DNA of 49,771 bases. It comes from Bacteroidota bacterium. GTDB lineage: Bacteria > Bacteroidota > Ignavibacteria > UBA10030 > UBA8401. The translations under genes were made by a program, and so were the position numbers. Every line of letters begins with the position of its first letter. The stretch's first letter is position 1. Below are positions 14,801 to 23,245 of this stretch, piece by piece. Below the pieces are notes generated by a model. The model was not told the DNA's origin, did no database searches, and worked only from the letters and a program-made list of their open reading frames with translations. The stretch lies in the NCBI GenBank assembly GCA_030679145.1, contig JAUXTU010000046.1:1-49771 (forward strand), in the 5' to 3' direction.

Positions 14801-15483
14801 TGGAAGAATAATCGGTATCCAATACCAATACCATACTCGTCAATTTTCGCAGTTGAATAACGCCCATCATTTCCATAATTGTCGCGAGTTTCAAAAACCC
14901 CATATCTACCGCCGATAATTAATTGTGATGTGTTTGTTGTCTGAAATGTTATTTCAGTACCAAAACCAGGTTTGGCAAATGCTAATCCCAAACTATATCC
15001 AGCCCAGATATTTGGAATTTGTTCAGAACATCGAACACCGATACCCAAGTTCAATGCTCCTTTACCGGAACTGATAGGAATGGAATTGATAAGGCCTAAC
15101 TCTGCATAAAGAGCGTCATATGTTCCTAACCGTAATCGATCCGTTCCAATGGCGAAATATTTAAAATCAAGTACAAGCGTAGGCCAAACGATAAATTTAT
15201 TTTTTGATGTTGATGTTGCTGCTGCTGTTAAACCAAACCGTATATATTCTCCTTTTGTTTCAATTCGAACGTTCCCTTCAGTATATGATGCAGGCCTAAA
15301 ATAACCGCTGCAGTCGCCAGTCTTTTGGAATTCGGCGAATTGACCTTTACCAACGGCAATTGTAAGGGCTGAATATGTTGAATCACTATCAGTGAATCCA
15401 ACGATGTAAGGGAAGAGGAGAAGGAAAATCAAAAGGGAAGTTAGATCATGCCGCTTTTGTCCTTGAAATGACCTTTTTGATAT
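14797..15483 (-). CDS. Predicted small outer-membrane beta-barrel protein
   Basis: About 228 residues from the ATG at 15483, which lies inside the 3' end of mqnC (38-base overlap), so it is translationally linked to mqnC. After a charged N-terminus a hydrophobic signal segment LTSLLIFLLLFPYIVG is followed by alternating polar/hydrophobic strands rich in Gly, Tyr and Phe, and a C-terminus ending YGIGIGYRLFFH, typical of outer-membrane barrels. No family is recognised. The position behind mqnC is probably accidental to menaquinone synthesis. A longer in-frame start at 15525 would bury the signal peptide. Confidence 0.6.
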   Translation of the reverse strand: MSKRSFQGQKRHDLTSLLIFLLLFPYIVGFTDSDSTYSALTIAVGKGQFAEFQKTGDCSGYFRPASYTEGNVRIETKGEYIRFGLTAAATSTSKNKFIVWPTLVLDFKYFAIGTDRLRLGTYDALYAELGLINSIPISSGKGALNLGIGVRCSEQIPNIWAGYSLGLAFAKPGFGTEITFQTTNTSQLIIGGRYGVFETRDNYGNDGRYSTAKIDEYGIGIGYRLFFH

Positions 15484-16540
15484 CATACAGCGTTCCTCGT
15501 TGAGCTGCATCAAATCCTGATTCATGAATGAGTTGGATACATTCCTCCGTATTTGTTTTGTTTACGAAGTTTGCAGCTGCGTGAACATTTTCTTCGAGTA
15601 ATGTTCCCCCAAAATCGTCTGCGCCAAAATGAAGCGCGATCTGCCCAGTCTTTTTTCCTTCGCTGAACCAAGAAGCCTGAACATGATCGAAGTTATCCAA
15701 ATAGACTCTTGAAAATGCGATCATTTCCAAGTAACGCTTTGGTGTTGCATAGGTCGGAATGATTTTTTCAAGGGGTGTATTTCCCGGTTTAAAACTCCAC
15801 GGAACGAATGCTGTGAATCCTTTATACTCGTCCTGCAATTCTCTAATCACTTCAAGGTGCTCAACAATGTCTTCATCTTTTTCAAGATGTCCGTACATCA
15901 TTGTAGCTGTTGATCTGAAACCTATCGTATGAGCTTCACGCATCACATTTAACCAATCTGCAGATGTTCCTTTTTTACTGCTGATCTTTTTCTTCACTCT
16001 GTCCGATAAGATTTCGGCGCCGCCGCCGGGAATTGATCGCTGTCCTGCATTCCATAATCGTTGAAGAACTTGTGCAAGAGTTAATCCTGAAACTCTAGCC
16101 ATCTCGATGATCTCGGAAGTAGAATAAAAATGCGGGTAGACTTCAGGAACCTCTTTTACTGTCCGTTCAACCATTTCAACATAATATTCGAATGGTAAAT
16201 CAGGATTCACACCACCTTGAAGAAGAATAGTAGTAATTCCTTTTTTTGCAGAATCTTTGAATTTCTGAATCATCTCATCAACGGAATGAGTGTAAACACC
16301 TTCTTCACCGGGATGACGATAGAATGCACAGAAGATACAATCGATGTTGCAGACATTGGTATAGTTTGGATTTGAATCGAGGACAAATGTTACTGCAGCA
16401 TCAGGATTCTTTTTGAATCGAATCTCGTTTGCAAGATCACCAAGATCCAATAATTGCGCGTTACGAAGAAGAAATAATCCTTCTTCTCTATTGATACGTT
16501 TATTATTTCGAACTTTAGCGTAAATTTCAGAAAGTGTCAT
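15446..16540 (-). CDS. mqnC: Cyclic dehypoxanthinyl futalosine synthase
   Basis: MqnC is a radical-SAM enzyme that cyclises dehypoxanthine futalosine, a central step in the futalosine route to menaquinone. The 364-residue protein has the cluster-binding CNIDCIFC (CxxxCxxC; Cys64, 68 and 71) followed by AFYRHPGEEGVYTHS, typical of MqnC rather than MqnE. Further shared features are LLQGGVNPDLP near 115, PGGGAEILS near 170 and YGHLEKDED near 220. It is separated from the preceding gene of the cluster by a strong terminator, so it may have its own promoter or depend on read-through. Confidence 0.93.
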   Translation of the reverse strand: MTLSEIYAKVRNNKRINREEGLFLLRNAQLLDLGDLANEIRFKKNPDAAVTFVLDSNPNYTNVCNIDCIFCAFYRHPGEEGVYTHSVDEMIQKFKDSAKKGITTILLQGGVNPDLPFEYYVEMVERTVKEVPEVYPHFYSTSEIIEMARVSGLTLAQVLQRLWNAGQRSIPGGGAEILSDRVKKKISSKKGTSADWLNVMREAHTIGFRSTATMMYGHLEKDEDIVEHLEVIRELQDEYKGFTAFVPWSFKPGNTPLEKIIPTYATPKRYLEMIAFSRVYLDNFDHVQASWFSEGKKTGQIALHFGADDFGGTLLEENVHAAANFVNKTNTEECIQLIHESGFDAAQRGTLYDIKKVISRTKAA

Positions 16541-16599: not shown

Positions 16600-17484
16600 T
16601 TAAAATGTTACAGTGTATCCGGCTGCTTTCAGATCTTTGATCAAACTGAAACTGATCTCTTCCAGTTTAACAACGATTTCTTTGTAGGCGATTCCGGGAA
16701 TTCCTTTTGGAGGAGCGTCATCCTTTTTGTGGATGCAGCACACGCGGTTTGACCCTACTTTTCCGATCAGATAGCCAAGCTCAAACATTGCACTGTTAAT
16801 GTCATCAGGGTTATAGAGATAGTACGCATACTTTACTGTTGGATATTTTTCCAAAAATCCGACAATTGCATCGGGAGAACTGCCACGCTGGAATGTGACA
16901 CCATCAATTCCCATTTCTTTTAACAAATTGGAGAGTTGATTTTGTAATGCAGATTCTGACGACGAGAGAACAAGCACTTGTTTTTTTGAAATAGAATCTT
17001 CCTTTGAAACAGGAGGTGCAACAGTTGGCGCGGCTGCTTGCACAGGCGGTGGAGCCGGTGCAGCTTTTGGTGCTTCTTGTTTTACCGGTGCTGGAGCGGG
17101 TTGAGGTGCAGGTTTAACCGGAACTTCAGGTGGCACAACTGGTTCAACTTTTGGAACCGGAGCAGGTGCTGGCGCAGCTTTTGGCGGCACACTTTTCTTT
17201 GCTTCAATTTCAGCAAGCACCAACGATTGTTTCATCATTTCAAGGATTAACTGTGCTGAACTCTGATAAAAATATGCACCGTTTTCATCTTTAGTGATTT
17301 TCTCACGATGAGGGTTTGCTTTTTCGCCGATCTTTGCAATTGTATCTAGACACGATTTCCGCCACATCAAATATTGGCTTTGCATTTTGGCGTTGTACCC
17401 TGAAAATTCGTGACCACCTTCAGGTGTAAGTTTTTCACCTTGTTGGATTAATTCGTGTAGCTTTGTAACAGTCTGTTGGTCCAT
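16600..17484 (-). CDS. TIR-like nucleotide-binding domain protein with Pro/Ala linker
   Basis: This 294-residue protein of uncertain function has three parts. Residues 1-98 are helical, with SQYLMWRKSCLDTIAKIGEK resembling the N-terminal domains of bacterial TIR-like (PF10137) proteins. Residues 99-165 are a low-complexity Pro/Ala linker. Residues 167-291 are the TIR-like fold: QVLVLSSS (first strand), YAYYLYNPDD, SAMFELGYLIGKVG with Glu235 where the NAD-cleaving glutamate sits, then NRVCCIHKKD, PKGIPGIAY and LIKDLKAAGY. In the family the first strand usually ends in HGRD; here it is SSSE. Known relatives are NAD-consuming effectors such as those in CBASS and Pycsar defence. Here it is the last gene of a menaquinone transcript, 31 bases after mqnE/A. 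No cyclase or defence gene is adjacent. Whether it cleaves NAD is unknown. Confidence 0.72.
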   Translation of the reverse strand: MDQQTVTKLHELIQQGEKLTPEGGHEFSGYNAKMQSQYLMWRKSCLDTIAKIGEKANPHREKITKDENGAYFYQSSAQLILEMMKQSLVLAEIEAKKSVPPKAAPAPAPVPKVEPVVPPEVPVKPAPQPAPAPVKQEAPKAAPAPPPVQAAAPTVAPPVSKEDSISKKQVLVLSSSESALQNQLSNLLKEMGIDGVTFQRGSSPDAIVGFLEKYPTVKYAYYLYNPDDINSAMFELGYLIGKVGSNRVCCIHKKDDAPPKGIPGIAYKEIVVKLEEISFSLIKDLKAAGYTVTF

Positions 17485-17515: not shown

Positions 17516-19378
17516 TTATGAAATTACAACAACTTCTTCAATAAGTTTTTTGAAAATGGTCATTGCCTCTTTTTCTCGTTCACCGAGCCGATAATTGAAT
17601 CCTTGCAAATATTCAGAAGTTTCCACTGGCGATAATGTGATCATTCTTCCATGGAGTGTGCCGATTGATTCGAGCTGATTCTCTCCTTTTTCAAGCGAAT
17701 GGTGAATGATCTGTTGAAGTGCTTCTTTTCTCTCTGTAGAAAGAGTTCTTTTGTGTGCCCATACTGCAAATACAAAAGGTATTTTTTGCCAATCATACCA
17801 TTCTTTTGCGAGGTCGAATACCAGGTCGAACCCTATTAAGCCGGATTTATTGGCTTTCAATGCTTCATCACCGATCAAAAGAACCGCATCAAATTGGGAA
17901 AAATCATTGACACTTGCATGCATTCGAACAAAATTTGCTTTTACACCATATTTTTTTTCTAGAAGAACTTGAAGCAGTCTAACCGAAGTAGCAGTGTCGT
18001 CGATAATTCCAATGTTCTTACCACTCAAACCCTGCCAGCCCTCTTTTGAGAAGAGCATTACACTTTTTACTTGATCGCGTGTTGCAATACAATAATTCAT
18101 CAATTCAAGTTTTTGTTCCTGAGCGAAATAATCCATCAAAGAAAATAATCCTGCATCAATCTGATCTTTTGCAGAGAGCTGTCCCATTCTTCTCGGTACA
18201 ATGGGAAGGATCTTGAATTGGCGCTGTTCAATGTTTTCGTAGAACGGAACGGAGTTAAGGTATGGAATTTTCCCGATAACATTTTCCGTATTCACATTGA
18301 TAGCATTGTAATAGACATCCCGTTCAACAGGAATTTTCCCTGCGTCATTAATGATCTTGATCAATTTTTCTTTTGCCATATTCATCGGGCTTGTCGCCCC
18401 GGCATCGTGTGCAATTTTTTCGCCGCCGACAGTACCGTCCATATCATCCGCACCAAAGTTCAATGCAACAGATGCAACTTCTTCGGTCAACATTACCCAG
18501 TATGCTTTGATGTGTGGAAAATTATCAAGCATCAATCGAGAAATTGCAATTGTCTTTAGATCTTCAATCGCTGACGTAAAATCATTCTTCGGTTTTATTC
18601 CGGTATCACCCGGTTGAAAAGCAAGGGGAATGAAGGAAAGAAATCCATTTGTTTCATCTTGAGTTTCACGAAGTTTTGTCATGTGTGTTACACGTTCTTC
18701 GTATGTTTCAATGTGACCGTACAGCAATGTTGCATTCGAAGGGATTCCCATTTTGTGTGCTGTCTTGTGAACTTCGAACCAGGTCTTCGCACCGATCTTT
18801 TGATTAAAGAGTAGTTTCCGTACGCGTTCAGAAAATACTTCCGCACCTCCGCCCGGCATTGTTCGTAATCCGGCAGCATACAATTGACGAAGTACTTCGT
18901 CTATCGGCATTTTGAATTTCTTATGGAAGAAATCTATTTCAACCGCAGTGAATGCCTTTACATCGATCTGTGGGAATGCTTTTTTGATATCTCGAACCAT
19001 TCCAACATAATATTCCCACGGCCAATCCGGATGCAAGCCGCCGGTAATATGGACTTCATGAACATCGGAATTGAGTTTCGACAGAATTTCTTCGATCGTC
19101 ATTTCGTACGCAAGTGGAGTTCCCTGTTTAACTGCAAAGTCACAGAACTTGCACGAGAGAACACAAATGTTTGTCGGTTCGATCTTTTGGTTGACGACAT
19201 AATACACAGCGTCGCCGCTTTTCATTTGTTGAACGGCGTTCGCCATCTTTCCGATAGAAATTAGATCGTTCGATGCGAACATTGTCAGCCCATCTTCTAA
19301 TGAAAGACGTTGACCGTTTTGAACTTTATCCCAAATGGAAAATAGGTTTTTGTCTCTGAAATGTATAGATGTAATCAT
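17516..19378 (-). CDS. mqnE/mqnA: Fused aminofutalosine synthase (MqnE) and chorismate dehydratase (MqnA)
   Basis: At 620 residues this is far longer than MqnE (about 370) and contains two whole enzymes. Residues 1-362 are the radical-SAM aminofutalosine synthase: CVLSCKFC (Cys72, 76 and 79) then DFAVKQGTP, HITGGLHPDWPWEYY, MPGGGAE and GHIETYEERV. From about residue 366 a MqnA-type chorismate dehydratase begins at NVIGKIPYLNSVPFY and continues with DAGLFSLMDYF, IIDDTATSVRLLQVLL and VLLIGDEAL to the end. MqnA dehydrates chorismate to 3-(1-carboxyvinyloxy)benzoate, which is the MqnE substrate, so two consecutive steps are joined with the later enzyme first. There is no frame interruption at the junction, and the linker is only a few residues. 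It sits between ubiD and the TIR-like gene, with gaps of 25 and 31 bases. Confidence 0.9.
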   Translation of the reverse strand: MITSIHFRDKNLFSIWDKVQNGQRLSLEDGLTMFASNDLISIGKMANAVQQMKSGDAVYYVVNQKIEPTNICVLSCKFCDFAVKQGTPLAYEMTIEEILSKLNSDVHEVHITGGLHPDWPWEYYVGMVRDIKKAFPQIDVKAFTAVEIDFFHKKFKMPIDEVLRQLYAAGLRTMPGGGAEVFSERVRKLLFNQKIGAKTWFEVHKTAHKMGIPSNATLLYGHIETYEERVTHMTKLRETQDETNGFLSFIPLAFQPGDTGIKPKNDFTSAIEDLKTIAISRLMLDNFPHIKAYWVMLTEEVASVALNFGADDMDGTVGGEKIAHDAGATSPMNMAKEKLIKIINDAGKIPVERDVYYNAINVNTENVIGKIPYLNSVPFYENIEQRQFKILPIVPRRMGQLSAKDQIDAGLFSLMDYFAQEQKLELMNYCIATRDQVKSVMLFSKEGWQGLSGKNIGIIDDTATSVRLLQVLLEKKYGVKANFVRMHASVNDFSQFDAVLLIGDEALKANKSGLIGFDLVFDLAKEWYDWQKIPFVFAVWAHKRTLSTERKEALQQIIHHSLEKGENQLESIGTLHGRMITLSPVETSEYLQGFNYRLGEREKEAMTIFKKLIEEVVVIS

Positions 19379-19403: not shown

Positions 19404-21170
19404 TTATCTCCAGTAACTATCCCATCGTTCGTCAACTTTTTTAACGATCGCGTCATCCATTGTCAATGGATTTGGATAACCGGTCTTCCATGTTGCATCA
19501 ATTCCCAAAACACCGTTATAAATGGGAGAGATACCGATCAATTTTTGTTCGGTAAAAATAATATCGCGTTCGCAGTCGAATCGAGTGAAGACTCCCCAAA
19601 TATAACTCTCTTGCTCGTTAATATCTACGTCAAAACTGACAGTTGCAGCAATCTTTACTCCTTCAAGATCGGGATGTTTAACAATTTTTTTAATGACTGC
19701 ATCACCATCTTTTTTCACTTTGACCAATAAGAACGAACCTTCAATAAGACGTGCGTCAATGATCCGTCTGTCGTACGAAGAAAGAGTTTTTACAACATCA
19801 TTCAATTTCTTTACATTCACTTTTTGTTTCGGCTTTTTCTTTTCCGTTGCATCAATGATCATTTTGCTGCCAAGATTCATTTTGAATGATGTAAAATCGA
19901 GCGTATCCAGCGGTACTTTCGGGATCATTACAAAATCAAAATGCGGGTCAAAATTATCGCGGATCGCTTTCAGTACTTCATTGAAATTTCGAACATCAAC
20001 ATTTTCAGAAACAGTGACCAAACATTTTGTAAGTGATAATTGTCCTGTTCCCATCAGACCAAGTGCGGCTTTCATCGCCTCTTTTTGATATCGTTCATTC
20101 ACCGAAACAACAAGAAGATTATGGAATCCTGCTTCGTAATACGCCCATATATTTTTTACTTCGTGATGAATCAGTCGGGCGAGCGGTGCAAGAATTTGCT
20201 GTGTTGCATCACCAATGAATTTATCTTCCATCGGCGGAATGCCGACAATAGTTGCAGGGTAGATTGGCTCTTTACGCCGAGTCATTGTATGAATATGAAA
20301 CACCGGAAAATCTGCCGCGTTGGAATAGTGACCGAAATGATCTCCAAATGGACCTTCAAGTCTTCGTTCTTTTGGTTTTACAATTCCTTCAAACACAAAC
20401 TCAGCATTTGCCGGAACAGAAATATTGATCGAACGACCTTTCACAAACTCCGTCGGCTTGCCTCGTAAGAAACCGGCAAACATTGCCTCATCAATTCCTT
20501 CAGGAAGTGCAGCAACTGTTGCAAGAAGAAGTGCAGGATCGCTTCCGATCACGAGTGCTACTTCAAGAGGCTGATTCATTTTCTCGGCAACGTGATAATG
20601 ATAGCCGCCACCTTTCCCGATCTGCCAATGCATACCTGTTGTTCGATCATCGTATTTTTGAATACGATACATTCCAATATTCCGTTTTCCGGTTTTAGGA
20701 TCGTAAGTGATCACTTGAGGAAGTGTAACAAACCGTCCGCCATCTTCGGGCCACGTTTTTAAAATAGGAAGTGCGGAAAGATTCGGTTCTTCGATCACCG
20801 CCTGAGAACGAGCGATCGTTACATTCTTCGGTCGCGCATTATATAAGCGCCGGATCATTGTTGATTCTTCAAAAAGAATCTTTGGCGAAGGGGGCATTAA
20901 TTTTTCTGCGAAAGCGATTAATTCTTCACCAAGTTCATCAGGATGTTTGTTGAGTGCGAGTTCGATACGCCGTTCACTTGCCAACATATTTATTACAAGC
21001 GGATAATCAGCTCCTTTAACGTTCTCGAATAATAGCGCAGGCTTACCCAGCTTTAACGAGCGTGTCGCAATCTCGGTAATTTCCAATTCAGGGTCGACTT
21101 CAACTTTTACACGATGAAGTTCTCCATTCTTTTCGAGATGTTTTACAAAGTCTTGTAGATTATCAAACAT
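19404..21170 (-). CDS. mqnL: UbiD-family prenylated-FMN decarboxylase (menaquinone branch)
   Basis: This 588-residue enzyme belongs to the UbiD family, which decarboxylates aromatic acids using prenylated FMN. Its place among mqn genes and its pairing with a ubiX-like gene indicate the decarboxylation of the prenylated 1,4-dihydroxy-6-naphthoate intermediate (MqnL in the futalosine route). Visible family features are GMYRIQKYD and GMHWQIGKGG near 165-190, the prFMN/metal segment EGPFGDHFGHYS near 285, and PPMEDKFIGDA near 320. The length is within the range of the long UbiD subgroup. It is separated from ubiX by the HEPN/MNT pair. Confidence 0.9.
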   Translation of the reverse strand: MFDNLQDFVKHLEKNGELHRVKVEVDPELEITEIATRSLKLGKPALLFENVKGADYPLVINMLASERRIELALNKHPDELGEELIAFAEKLMPPSPKILFEESTMIRRLYNARPKNVTIARSQAVIEEPNLSALPILKTWPEDGGRFVTLPQVITYDPKTGKRNIGMYRIQKYDDRTTGMHWQIGKGGGYHYHVAEKMNQPLEVALVIGSDPALLLATVAALPEGIDEAMFAGFLRGKPTEFVKGRSINISVPANAEFVFEGIVKPKERRLEGPFGDHFGHYSNAADFPVFHIHTMTRRKEPIYPATIVGIPPMEDKFIGDATQQILAPLARLIHHEVKNIWAYYEAGFHNLLVVSVNERYQKEAMKAALGLMGTGQLSLTKCLVTVSENVDVRNFNEVLKAIRDNFDPHFDFVMIPKVPLDTLDFTSFKMNLGSKMIIDATEKKKPKQKVNVKKLNDVVKTLSSYDRRIIDARLIEGSFLLVKVKKDGDAVIKKIVKHPDLEGVKIAATVSFDVDINEQESYIWGVFTRFDCERDIIFTEQKLIGISPIYNGVLGIDATWKTGYPNPLTMDDAIVKKVDERWDSYWR

Positions 21171-21178
21171 TAACAGTC

Positions 21179-21496
21179 CTAATTTATTTCAATCTCTAAA
21201 CCGGTACGCTTAATTTCATCAATTAACGGGTCACCGTCTTCATAATCTTTTGGAGAGTAAGTTTTTGTTTGAATAGAACTGTATTTTCTTAATGCAGGTA
21301 AGAATAATTTCATATCTTCAAACCCGATTCCAATAAATTCATCTGCAACTAAAGCGATATCAATATCGGAATGTACCCCCTGTTGATTTTTTGCAAAGGA
21401 GCCGAATAAAAAAGCTTTTCTCAAATGAATTCCTTCTGCTTTAACTTCTTGAGAAAATTTTCTTGCAATTTCTAACGCGCTAAGTTGAGTAACCAT
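21179..21496 (-). CDS. Minimal nucleotidyltransferase (MNT) of a HEPN/MNT pair
   Basis: This 105-residue protein has the polymerase-beta-type nucleotidyltransferase core: KAFLFGSFAKNQQG followed by HSDIDIALV, giving the Gly-Ser and Asp-x-Asp catalytic elements. Proteins of this size next to a HEPN gene act as toxin-antitoxin pairs in which the MNT partner modifies and silences the HEPN RNase; for this subfamily that is inferred. Its start overlaps the HEPN gene's end by 25 bases, so the two are co-translated. It lies inside the menaquinone operon, 8 bases before ubiD. Confidence 0.85.
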   Translation of the reverse strand: MVTQLSALEIARKFSQEVKAEGIHLRKAFLFGSFAKNQQGVHSDIDIALVADEFIGIGFEDMKLFLPALRKYSSIQTKTYSPKDYEDGDPLIDEIKRTGLEIEIN

Positions 21497-21864
21497 TCGC
21501 GATACTCCTTTACTTGATTCAAAATGGATTGTGTATTATTCTTTTCATACAGTTTATAGACTTTTTGACGATAGTCAGGATAACGTCCTTCAATTTGAAA
21601 ATTGTTCATTAAAATTAGAAAATCTTTTTTTGAATCGGGAATTTTAAAGTTTGCCTTTTCAAGGATGTAAACAAGATTGTGAACTTTTGGTGGTATGTTC
21701 CCTTCATTTGAATTTACCCAAATAGCTTTAGTGAGTTTTTCCAAAACAAGATGAGCAAAAAATAATGAATACACGAAATTTTCGGATTCAAATAAAGTCC
21801 ACACAACCTTCCAATCTTCTTCAGATGAATCAATCCAATATTTTATATGTTCCTGTTTTGTCAT
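21472..21864 (-). CDS. HEPN domain protein of a HEPN/MNT pair
   Basis: This 130-residue all-helical HEPN protein belongs to the PF05168 type: KYWIDSSEEDWKVVWTLF at the N-terminus, YSLFFAHLVLEKLTKAIWV in the second helix and PPKVHNLVYILEKA after it. It is the usual partner of the minimal nucleotidyltransferase encoded next. The strong Rx4-6H RNase motif of HepT-type toxins is not obvious, so nuclease activity is uncertain. It starts 5 bases after ubiX and overlaps the MNT gene by 25 bases, so the pair has no room for its own promoter between the menaquinone genes. Confidence 0.83.
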   Translation of the reverse strand: MTKQEHIKYWIDSSEEDWKVVWTLFESENFVYSLFFAHLVLEKLTKAIWVNSNEGNIPPKVHNLVYILEKANFKIPDSKKDFLILMNNFQIEGRYPDYRQKVYKLYEKNNTQSILNQVKEYREWLLNLAR

Positions 21865-21869
21865 ATATT

Positions 21870-22421
21870 TTATTCAAACTCTTCCGCTCTCCAGCCGCGT
21901 CCGCGTTTTTCGCCAATTGCGCCAAGTACCTTATCCGTAAAAGCACCAACATACTCATCAACAGTCTCAGGAACAAAGTACAGTGGTGATGAAATCGGCA
22001 TTACGATAGCACCGTAACCTGACAGCTTGCTTAATTGTTCGAGCGTTAACGTCGACAACGGAGTTTCACGAACACAGATGACCAATTTGTATCGTTCTTT
22101 TAATGCGACTTGCGCTGTTCGGGTTATTAAAGTGTCGCCAATTCCGGATGCAATTTTCCCAATTGTTGACGTGGAGCAGGGAAGGATCACATACGCATCA
22201 AAAAAATTTGAACCGGAAGCGATTGGTGCTGCAAGATCATCATCAGAAAATTGTCGTTTAACGTGCGGTAACAAATCTTTGTCGGACATTTTCAATTCAT
22301 CTTTCAGCAATGCTTTTCCCCATTTGCTGACGACAAGAAATTTATCTGATTGGGATTTTTTCAAAAAATCCAACGCATATACCGCTCCGGAACTTCCCGT
22401 AATGCCTAAGACGATTTTCAC
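21870..22421 (-). CDS. ubiX: Flavin prenyltransferase (UbiX family)
   Basis: UbiX prenylates reduced FMN, making the cofactor required by the UbiD-type decarboxylase two genes downstream (called MqnM in the futalosine route). The 183-residue protein has the Rossmann-like start VLGITGSSGAVYALDFL, PIASGSNFFDAYVILPCSTSTIG near 70-95 and the phosphate-binding VCVRETPLSTL near 130. All conserved elements are intact. Its start codon overlaps the prenyltransferase stop by four bases (ATGA), showing translational coupling. Confidence 0.94.
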   Translation of the reverse strand: MKIVLGITGSSGAVYALDFLKKSQSDKFLVVSKWGKALLKDELKMSDKDLLPHVKRQFSDDDLAAPIASGSNFFDAYVILPCSTSTIGKIASGIGDTLITRTAQVALKERYKLVICVRETPLSTLTLEQLSKLSGYGAIVMPISSPLYFVPETVDEYVGAFTDKVLGAIGEKRGRGWRAEEFE

Positions 22422-23245
22422 TGTGCGCTCACAAGAATCATAACAAGAATACTGAATCCCACTACAATATTGATCTTAAAGAACGCTAATTCCACATCTT
22501 CTGCTTTGTATTGCTCCAGCCAGAGAAGAAATCCGCTCAATAATAAGAACGGCAGTGCTACTAATGCTTTTAACGAAATCAAAACAAGTGCGATGAGTAC
22601 AAAGAATGCTAAGATGTGTAGTACGCCTGAAATTTGTAACGCCCGAATTTTTCCGAAACGGGATGGGAATGAAAATAATCCTGCTTTTTTATCAAACTGT
22701 TCATCAAGTGTAGAATAGATAATATCAAATCCTGTTGCCCAGAATAAATTGAACAACGGAAGAAGTAACGCTTCTCCGAATCTATCAATTGAACCGGTCA
22801 CTGCAAAAAATCCGCCGAGCGGACCCATTGCCAATCCCATTCCCACTCCAAAATGTGCGAGTGGTGTAAATCTTTTTAAGTATGGATAAACCACAAACAC
22901 TATTAATGGAATCGGAGATAGAAAAAAACAAAAATCGGAGATCAGCTTTGCTGAAACAAGATATAACGTTAAACCTACAAGCAGAACGCCGTAACTTTGT
23001 TTTAAGTTCAATTTTCCGCTGGGAAGTTCGCGAGTAATCGTGCGGGGATTATGTTTATCAATTTCTCGGTCGATAATTCGGTTCAACGTCATTGCAACCA
23101 AACGAGCGCCGACAGCTGCAACAAGAACTAAAATTAATAATAGAGTGGAAGGTCTTTCTTTAGACGCAAGAAACACACCGCTATAGATCATTGGCAGTGA
23201 AAACAGGGTGTGTTCTATTTTAATAAATGATAGATATTTTTTCAA
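22418..23245 (-). CDS. mqnP: UbiA-type prenyltransferase of the futalosine pathway
   Basis: This 275-residue integral membrane protein is a UbiA-superfamily prenyltransferase that attaches the polyprenyl tail to the naphthoate ring. About eight hydrophobic segments are visible. The two aspartate-rich Mg-diphosphate motifs are NRIIDREIDKHNPRT (about residue 56) and DIIYSTLDEQFDKK (about 170), both complete. It is the first gene of the menaquinone operon, and the neighbours identify the substrate as 1,4-dihydroxy-6-naphthoate rather than 4-hydroxybenzoate. The operon faces away from the isocitrate dehydrogenase gene, 145 bases away. Confidence 0.92.
   Translation of the reverse strand: MKKYLSFIKIEHTLFSLPMIYSGVFLASKERPSTLLLILVLVAAVGARLVAMTLNRIIDREIDKHNPRTITRELPSGKLNLKQSYGVLLVGLTLYLVSAKLISDFCFFLSPIPLIVFVVYPYLKRFTPLAHFGVGMGLAMGPLGGFFAVTGSIDRFGEALLLPLFNLFWATGFDIIYSTLDEQFDKKAGLFSFPSRFGKIRALQISGVLHILAFFVLIALVLISLKALVALPFLLLSGFLLWLEQYKAEDVELAFFKINIVVGFSILVMILVSAQ

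Follow-up and report, generated by a model that had tools for sequence, protein, structure and literature searches.

The mqn locus and the fused gene

The window, i.e. the whole stretch of 49,771 nucleotides analysed here (contig JAUXTU010000046.1 of the Bacteroidota bacterium assembly GCA_030679145.1), carries on one strand a run of genes which, in the order of transcription, comprises a ubiA-type gene, a ubiX-type gene, two small genes, a ubiD-type gene, mqnE–mqnA, a TIR-like gene, and mqnC (Table 1). The mqnE–mqnA gene starts with ATG and consists of 620 uninterrupted codons, its sole stop being the terminal one; the frame of this length noticed in an earlier sequence-only reading, which gave no strand, is present on the minus strand. 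Nine related loci have a homologue of the TIR-like gene at the corresponding position; it is absent where mqnC directly follows the fusion.

In profile searches the MqnE half scores 480.2 bits with TIGR03700 against a curated equivalog cut-off of 434.55, and this model is the best among those of the paralogues, the MqnC and CofH models staying under their own cut-offs. Its closest solved structure by sequence is PDB 6xi9 (2.8e-83). The MqnA half scores 157 bits with PF02621 (cut-off 26), the match beginning at residue 368, close to the start at about residue 366 that the sequence-only reading had proposed, and its closest solved structure by sequence is the chorismate dehydratase SCO4506 (1.3e-22).

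The best PF02621 match of the genome is an MqnD candidate located elsewhere, beside a ubiE-like gene, and three genes are of the PF01048 nucleoside phosphorylase/nucleosidase type. The mqn/ubi gene run, together with the MqnD candidate and the PF01048 genes, indicates that the genome has the futalosine route, for which the fused domain is, as judged from sequence, the only credible MqnA candidate.

Table 1. Positions of the features of the fused gene, its neighbourhood, and the related loci (window coordinates unless a locus is named)
Feature	Position	Strand	Remarks
UbiA-type prenyltransferase, probable MqnP	22418..23245	−	TIGR01475, 266 bits vs 180.8; MqnP models match under their own cut-offs
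UbiX-type flavin prenyltransferase	21870..22421	−	TIGR00421, 144 bits vs 108.9
Two small overlapping genes between ubiX and ubiD	21179–21864	−	HEPN/nucleotidyltransferase toxin–antitoxin-type pair by eye
UbiD-type menaquinone biosynthesis decarboxylase	19404..21170	−	TIGR03701, 521 bits vs 495.9
mqnE–mqnA fusion gene	17516..19378	−	620 aa; open frame; both families above curated cut-offs; same frame in relatives
MqnE (radical-SAM aminofutalosine synthase) domain	18299..19336	−	residues 15–360; TIGR03700, PDB 6xi9, fold 6xig
CxxxCxxC motif for [4Fe-4S] cluster	19142..19165	−	Cys72/76/79; invariant in 54/54 fusions
Junction of MqnE C-terminus and first strand of MqnA	18278..18316	−	residues 355–367; length in fusions; +1-frame overlap in unfused sisters
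MqnA (chorismate dehydratase) domain	17537..18277	−	residues 368–614; PF02621, SCO4506, key Asn and Ser
TIR-like gene between fusion and mqnC	16600..17484	−	PF10137, 7.6e-9
mqnC, cyclic dehypoxanthinyl futalosine synthase	15446..16540	−	TIGR03699, 452 bits vs 428.1
Orphan MqnA-like paralogue	L003 1432–2241 (G000:C17)		PF02621; sole other MqnA-like gene besides mqnD
MqnA–MqnC fusion, family f8	L152 3152–5365; L153 4656–6722; L154 2316–4457; L155 5068–7161		single frame
MqnE-like gene just upstream of the f8 fusion (3/4 loci)	L155 3920–5140; L153 6900–8024; L154 4370–5473

Catalytic residues, selection, and predicted fold

The three cysteines to which the sequence-only reading had pointed form a CxxxCxxC motif, and all three are present in every aligned fusion (54/54), well past what chance would give. 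In the MqnA half, the key positions are those of the deposited SCO4506 variants, taken from the printed alignments: Asn to Ser in 7an7, Ser to Ala in 7an8, and Tyr to Phe in 7an9. The residues of the fusion matching them are Asn375, Ser439, and Tyr590, of which the first two are kept in 54/54 aligned fusions (Ser465 is also invariant) and Tyr590 in 50/54, including that of the window, with Phe in four. Both halves are under strong purifying selection, with dN/dS of about 0.015–0.022 for the MqnE half and 0.038–0.039 for the MqnA half in comparison with the two nearest congeners.

The AlphaFold2 model, built on the 54-sequence alignment, has a mean pLDDT of 86.7 and a pTM of 0.86, and its top fold matches in the PDB are MqnE (6xig, 7e-34) followed by MqnA, with MqnD (2czl) far weaker; the C-terminal half is therefore nearer to MqnA than to MqnD both by sequence and by fold, SCO4506 being its counterpart in each case. 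Both fused halves look active on these residues and folds, and the earlier view that one protein holds a complete MqnE and a complete MqnA is borne out by both families exceeding their cut-offs and by the retention of the key residues.

MqnE of Pedobacter heparinus (PDB 6xi9/6xig) resembles the N-terminal half in the whole domain, the CxxxCxxC motif, the fold, and the family score, but the solved protein stops after the MqnE domain, whereas in the fusion the MqnA domain comes directly after it. The C-terminal half is similarly alike to SCO4506 (PDB 7ahr and the variants; also 6o9a) in the whole domain, the key Asn, Ser, and Tyr, and the fold, but that MqnA is free-standing, while the fused one follows MqnE and lacks its own start. 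In CofGH, the bifunctional FO synthase, a CofH-type radical-SAM enzyme is known to be joined to its partner in the pathway, both being radical-SAM domains of F420 synthesis. With the CofGH model NF006687 the protein described here scores 250, while the cut-off is 1018.

Distribution and related fusions

The fusion was sought in 60 genomes, that of the window and 59 relatives, with the tally made from search rows and all sequences coming from metagenome-assembled genomes (MAGs). It is present whole in one frame in 41/60 genomes, and in eight further ones the frame spans the junction but is interrupted by the end of a contig or by a break in the frame (49/60 in total); separate mqnE and mqnA were found in none of the 60 genomes searched. 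In the wider class, families f13, f15, and f16 also have the fusion, whereas in f12 and f20 the genes are separate. Among named records, the fusion occurs in Ignavibacteria-type MAGs of the Bacteroidota, in one MAG with the label KSB1 (L045), and in one with the label Deltaproteobacteria (L043), the labels being given as recorded. A second putative MqnE–MqnA fusion, met in the phylum search in G252 (open frame 677), was rejected, as it consists of two frames with stops between them.

The MqnE and MqnA families are well known. In line with the sequence-only reading, no earlier description of their fusion into one protein turned up among the 5.39 million open-access papers covered; automatic annotation as a fusion may exist. 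Zhi et al. 2014 (PMC3914697) contains neither "Ignavibacter" nor "bifunctional", and "fus" stands there for Fusobacteria and similar words.

A different fusion is found in the same class, in family f8, four genomes of which (L152–L155) have MqnA and MqnC in a single frame, measuring 689–738 aa from stop to stop, in which Radical_SAM and PF02621 each exceed the cut-off. As in the MqnE–MqnA protein, MqnA is joined to a radical-SAM partner from its own pathway, but it is the other junction of the mqnE–mqnA–mqnC order that is fused, with MqnA first. The MqnE-like gene lying just upstream, in the copy read (L155), lacks a CxxxCxxC motif and is not matched by the Pfam Radical_SAM model, and a search of the four f8 genomes gave no MqnE scoring above the curated cut-off. 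Another frame, of 588 aa (L076, 2168–3931), from a MAG labelled Proteobacteria, begins like MqnA and continues with a radical-SAM-like part that has no visible CxxxCxxC.

Origin of the fusion and the order of its domains

All of the 62 fused sequences group in a single clade of the MqnE tree (support 98), and this clade adjoins unfused sequences of SAR202/Dehalococcoidia, Latescibacterota, Eisenbacteria, and Acidobacteriota (joint clade 100). The MqnA tree concurs, with a support of 99 for the fused clade, whose lone "separate" member, L053, is truncated by the end of its contig and runs from an MqnE domain into MqnA. Since both domain trees give one fused clade, we infer that the fusion arose once. 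Families f12 and f20, which belong to the same class and are unfused, are placed elsewhere in both trees, and therefore the mqn operon was probably passed between phyla at some time.

The unfused clusters of SAR202/Dehalococcoidia, Latescibacterota, and Acidobacteriota share the gene order with the fusion and are its sisters in the MqnE tree, but have two genes, overlapping or adjacent, in place of one. In SAR202/Dehalococcoidia the order is mqnE–mqnA–mqnC, and the mqnA start precedes the mqnE stop, with an overlap of 11–17 nt in the +1 frame; the run ubiA–ubiX–ubiD–mqnE–mqnA–mqnC with separate genes occurs in Latescibacterota (L058), Acidobacteriota (L062), and Riflebacteria (L083). Counted from where the last MqnE codon pair (GAAAAT or similar) ends up to the last base of the TAC of IPY, the distance is 22 nt in the unfused L057 and L060 against 21 nt in the window; taking out one base therefore gives both the fused frame and its spacing. 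The ancestor would then have had an mqnE–mqnA–mqnC operon in which mqnA, in the +1 frame, overlapped the stop of mqnE, and by the simplest route, inferred from present-day sequences, the loss of one base at the overlap would have created the single mqnE–mqnA frame.

The junction has the same length in 46/54 fusions, is longer by three residues in seven and by 15 in one, and is poorly conserved in sequence. As to an internal start for separate translation of MqnA, no conserved start codon was found across 53 fusions; in 35/53 the junction has no ATG, GTG, or TTG at all, and in 46/53 no ATG. The order of the domains is indeed reversed relative to that of the reactions, as the sequence-only reading had it, but no functional reason has to be sought for it: in unfused relatives from other phyla, mqnE already lies immediately upstream of mqnA and often overlaps it, and the reversed order is thus the inherited operon order.

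Function of the fused protein

Chorismate is the substrate of MqnA, whose product, 3-[(1-carboxyvinyl)oxy]benzoate, receives the adenosyl radical of SAM in the MqnE reaction to yield 6-amino-6-deoxyfutalosine. In the fused protein the C-terminal domain is predicted to dehydrate chorismate, and the N-terminal radical-SAM domain would couple the resulting 3-[(1-carboxyvinyl)oxy]benzoate to the adenosyl part of SAM. The protein is very probably a bifunctional enzyme of the futalosine pathway, making 6-amino-6-deoxyfutalosine from chorismate and SAM, fused once by the loss of a base at the gene overlap, with a matched dosage of both enzymes, carried on one polypeptide, as the chief effect. The family scores, key residues, folds, dN/dS, single origin, junction spacing, and shared operon order argue for this reading, as does the absence of the catalytic Asn from the other MqnA-like gene; against it count the Phe in place of Tyr590 in four fusions and the origin of every sequence from MAGs.

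The protein could, beyond that, be a channelling machine, selected for a fixed geometry in which 3-[(1-carboxyvinyl)oxy]benzoate is handed on by the MqnA site to that of MqnE, an idea that we regard as unlikely. The two steps are consecutive, the fusion is retained throughout the order with no genome found in which it is split, the junction length is mostly constant, and the pTM of the model is 0.86, all of which would fit such a device. However, the domain order and spacing follow from the ancestral overlap, an insert of 15 residues is tolerated at the junction, whose sequence varies, and in the second family the partner of MqnA is MqnC, whose step does not come next. That the junction is short and mostly constant, and that the fusion was retained, is accounted for equally well by the loss of one base in an ancestor. 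That the enol-ether intermediate passes between the two sites, coupling chorismate dehydration to radical-SAM adenosylation, is likewise rather doubtful; if true, the protein would be a natural channelling module in the futalosine pathway.

Far less probable is that the fused MqnA half is a remnant, either regulatory or without catalysis, and that the true chorismate dehydratase is encoded by the orphan PF02621 gene of contig C17. The orphan is present through most of the order, and it is closer than the fused domain to the MqnA of the unfused f12 and f20. Yet the key Asn is kept in 0/17 orphans, on which ground the gene was rejected as the real MqnA, and Glu or Asp replaces the MqnA-invariant Ser in 17/17, while the fused domains keep both Asn and Ser in 56/56 compared. 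Moreover, orphans persist in genomes in which neither mqnE nor mqnC was found, and the paralogue therefore probably has another function.

An assembly or sequencing artefact that merged two genes has practically no chance of being the explanation: every source is a draft MAG, nothing further speaks for it, the same junction recurs in dozens of independent assemblies at 58–96% protein identity, and neither of the signs against a true fusion named in the sequence-only reading, a join at about residue 363 or close relatives carrying a pair of genes instead, was found when sought.

The bifunctional enzyme would illustrate how one base lost at an overlapping operon junction can give a single protein, with living unfused sisters for comparison, and would provide the opening two steps of the futalosine pathway ready-made in one protein, of use for structures and tests of channelling. 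It also cautions that domain order need not mirror reaction order, and annotation by the best family model alone would miss the MqnA step in these genomes.
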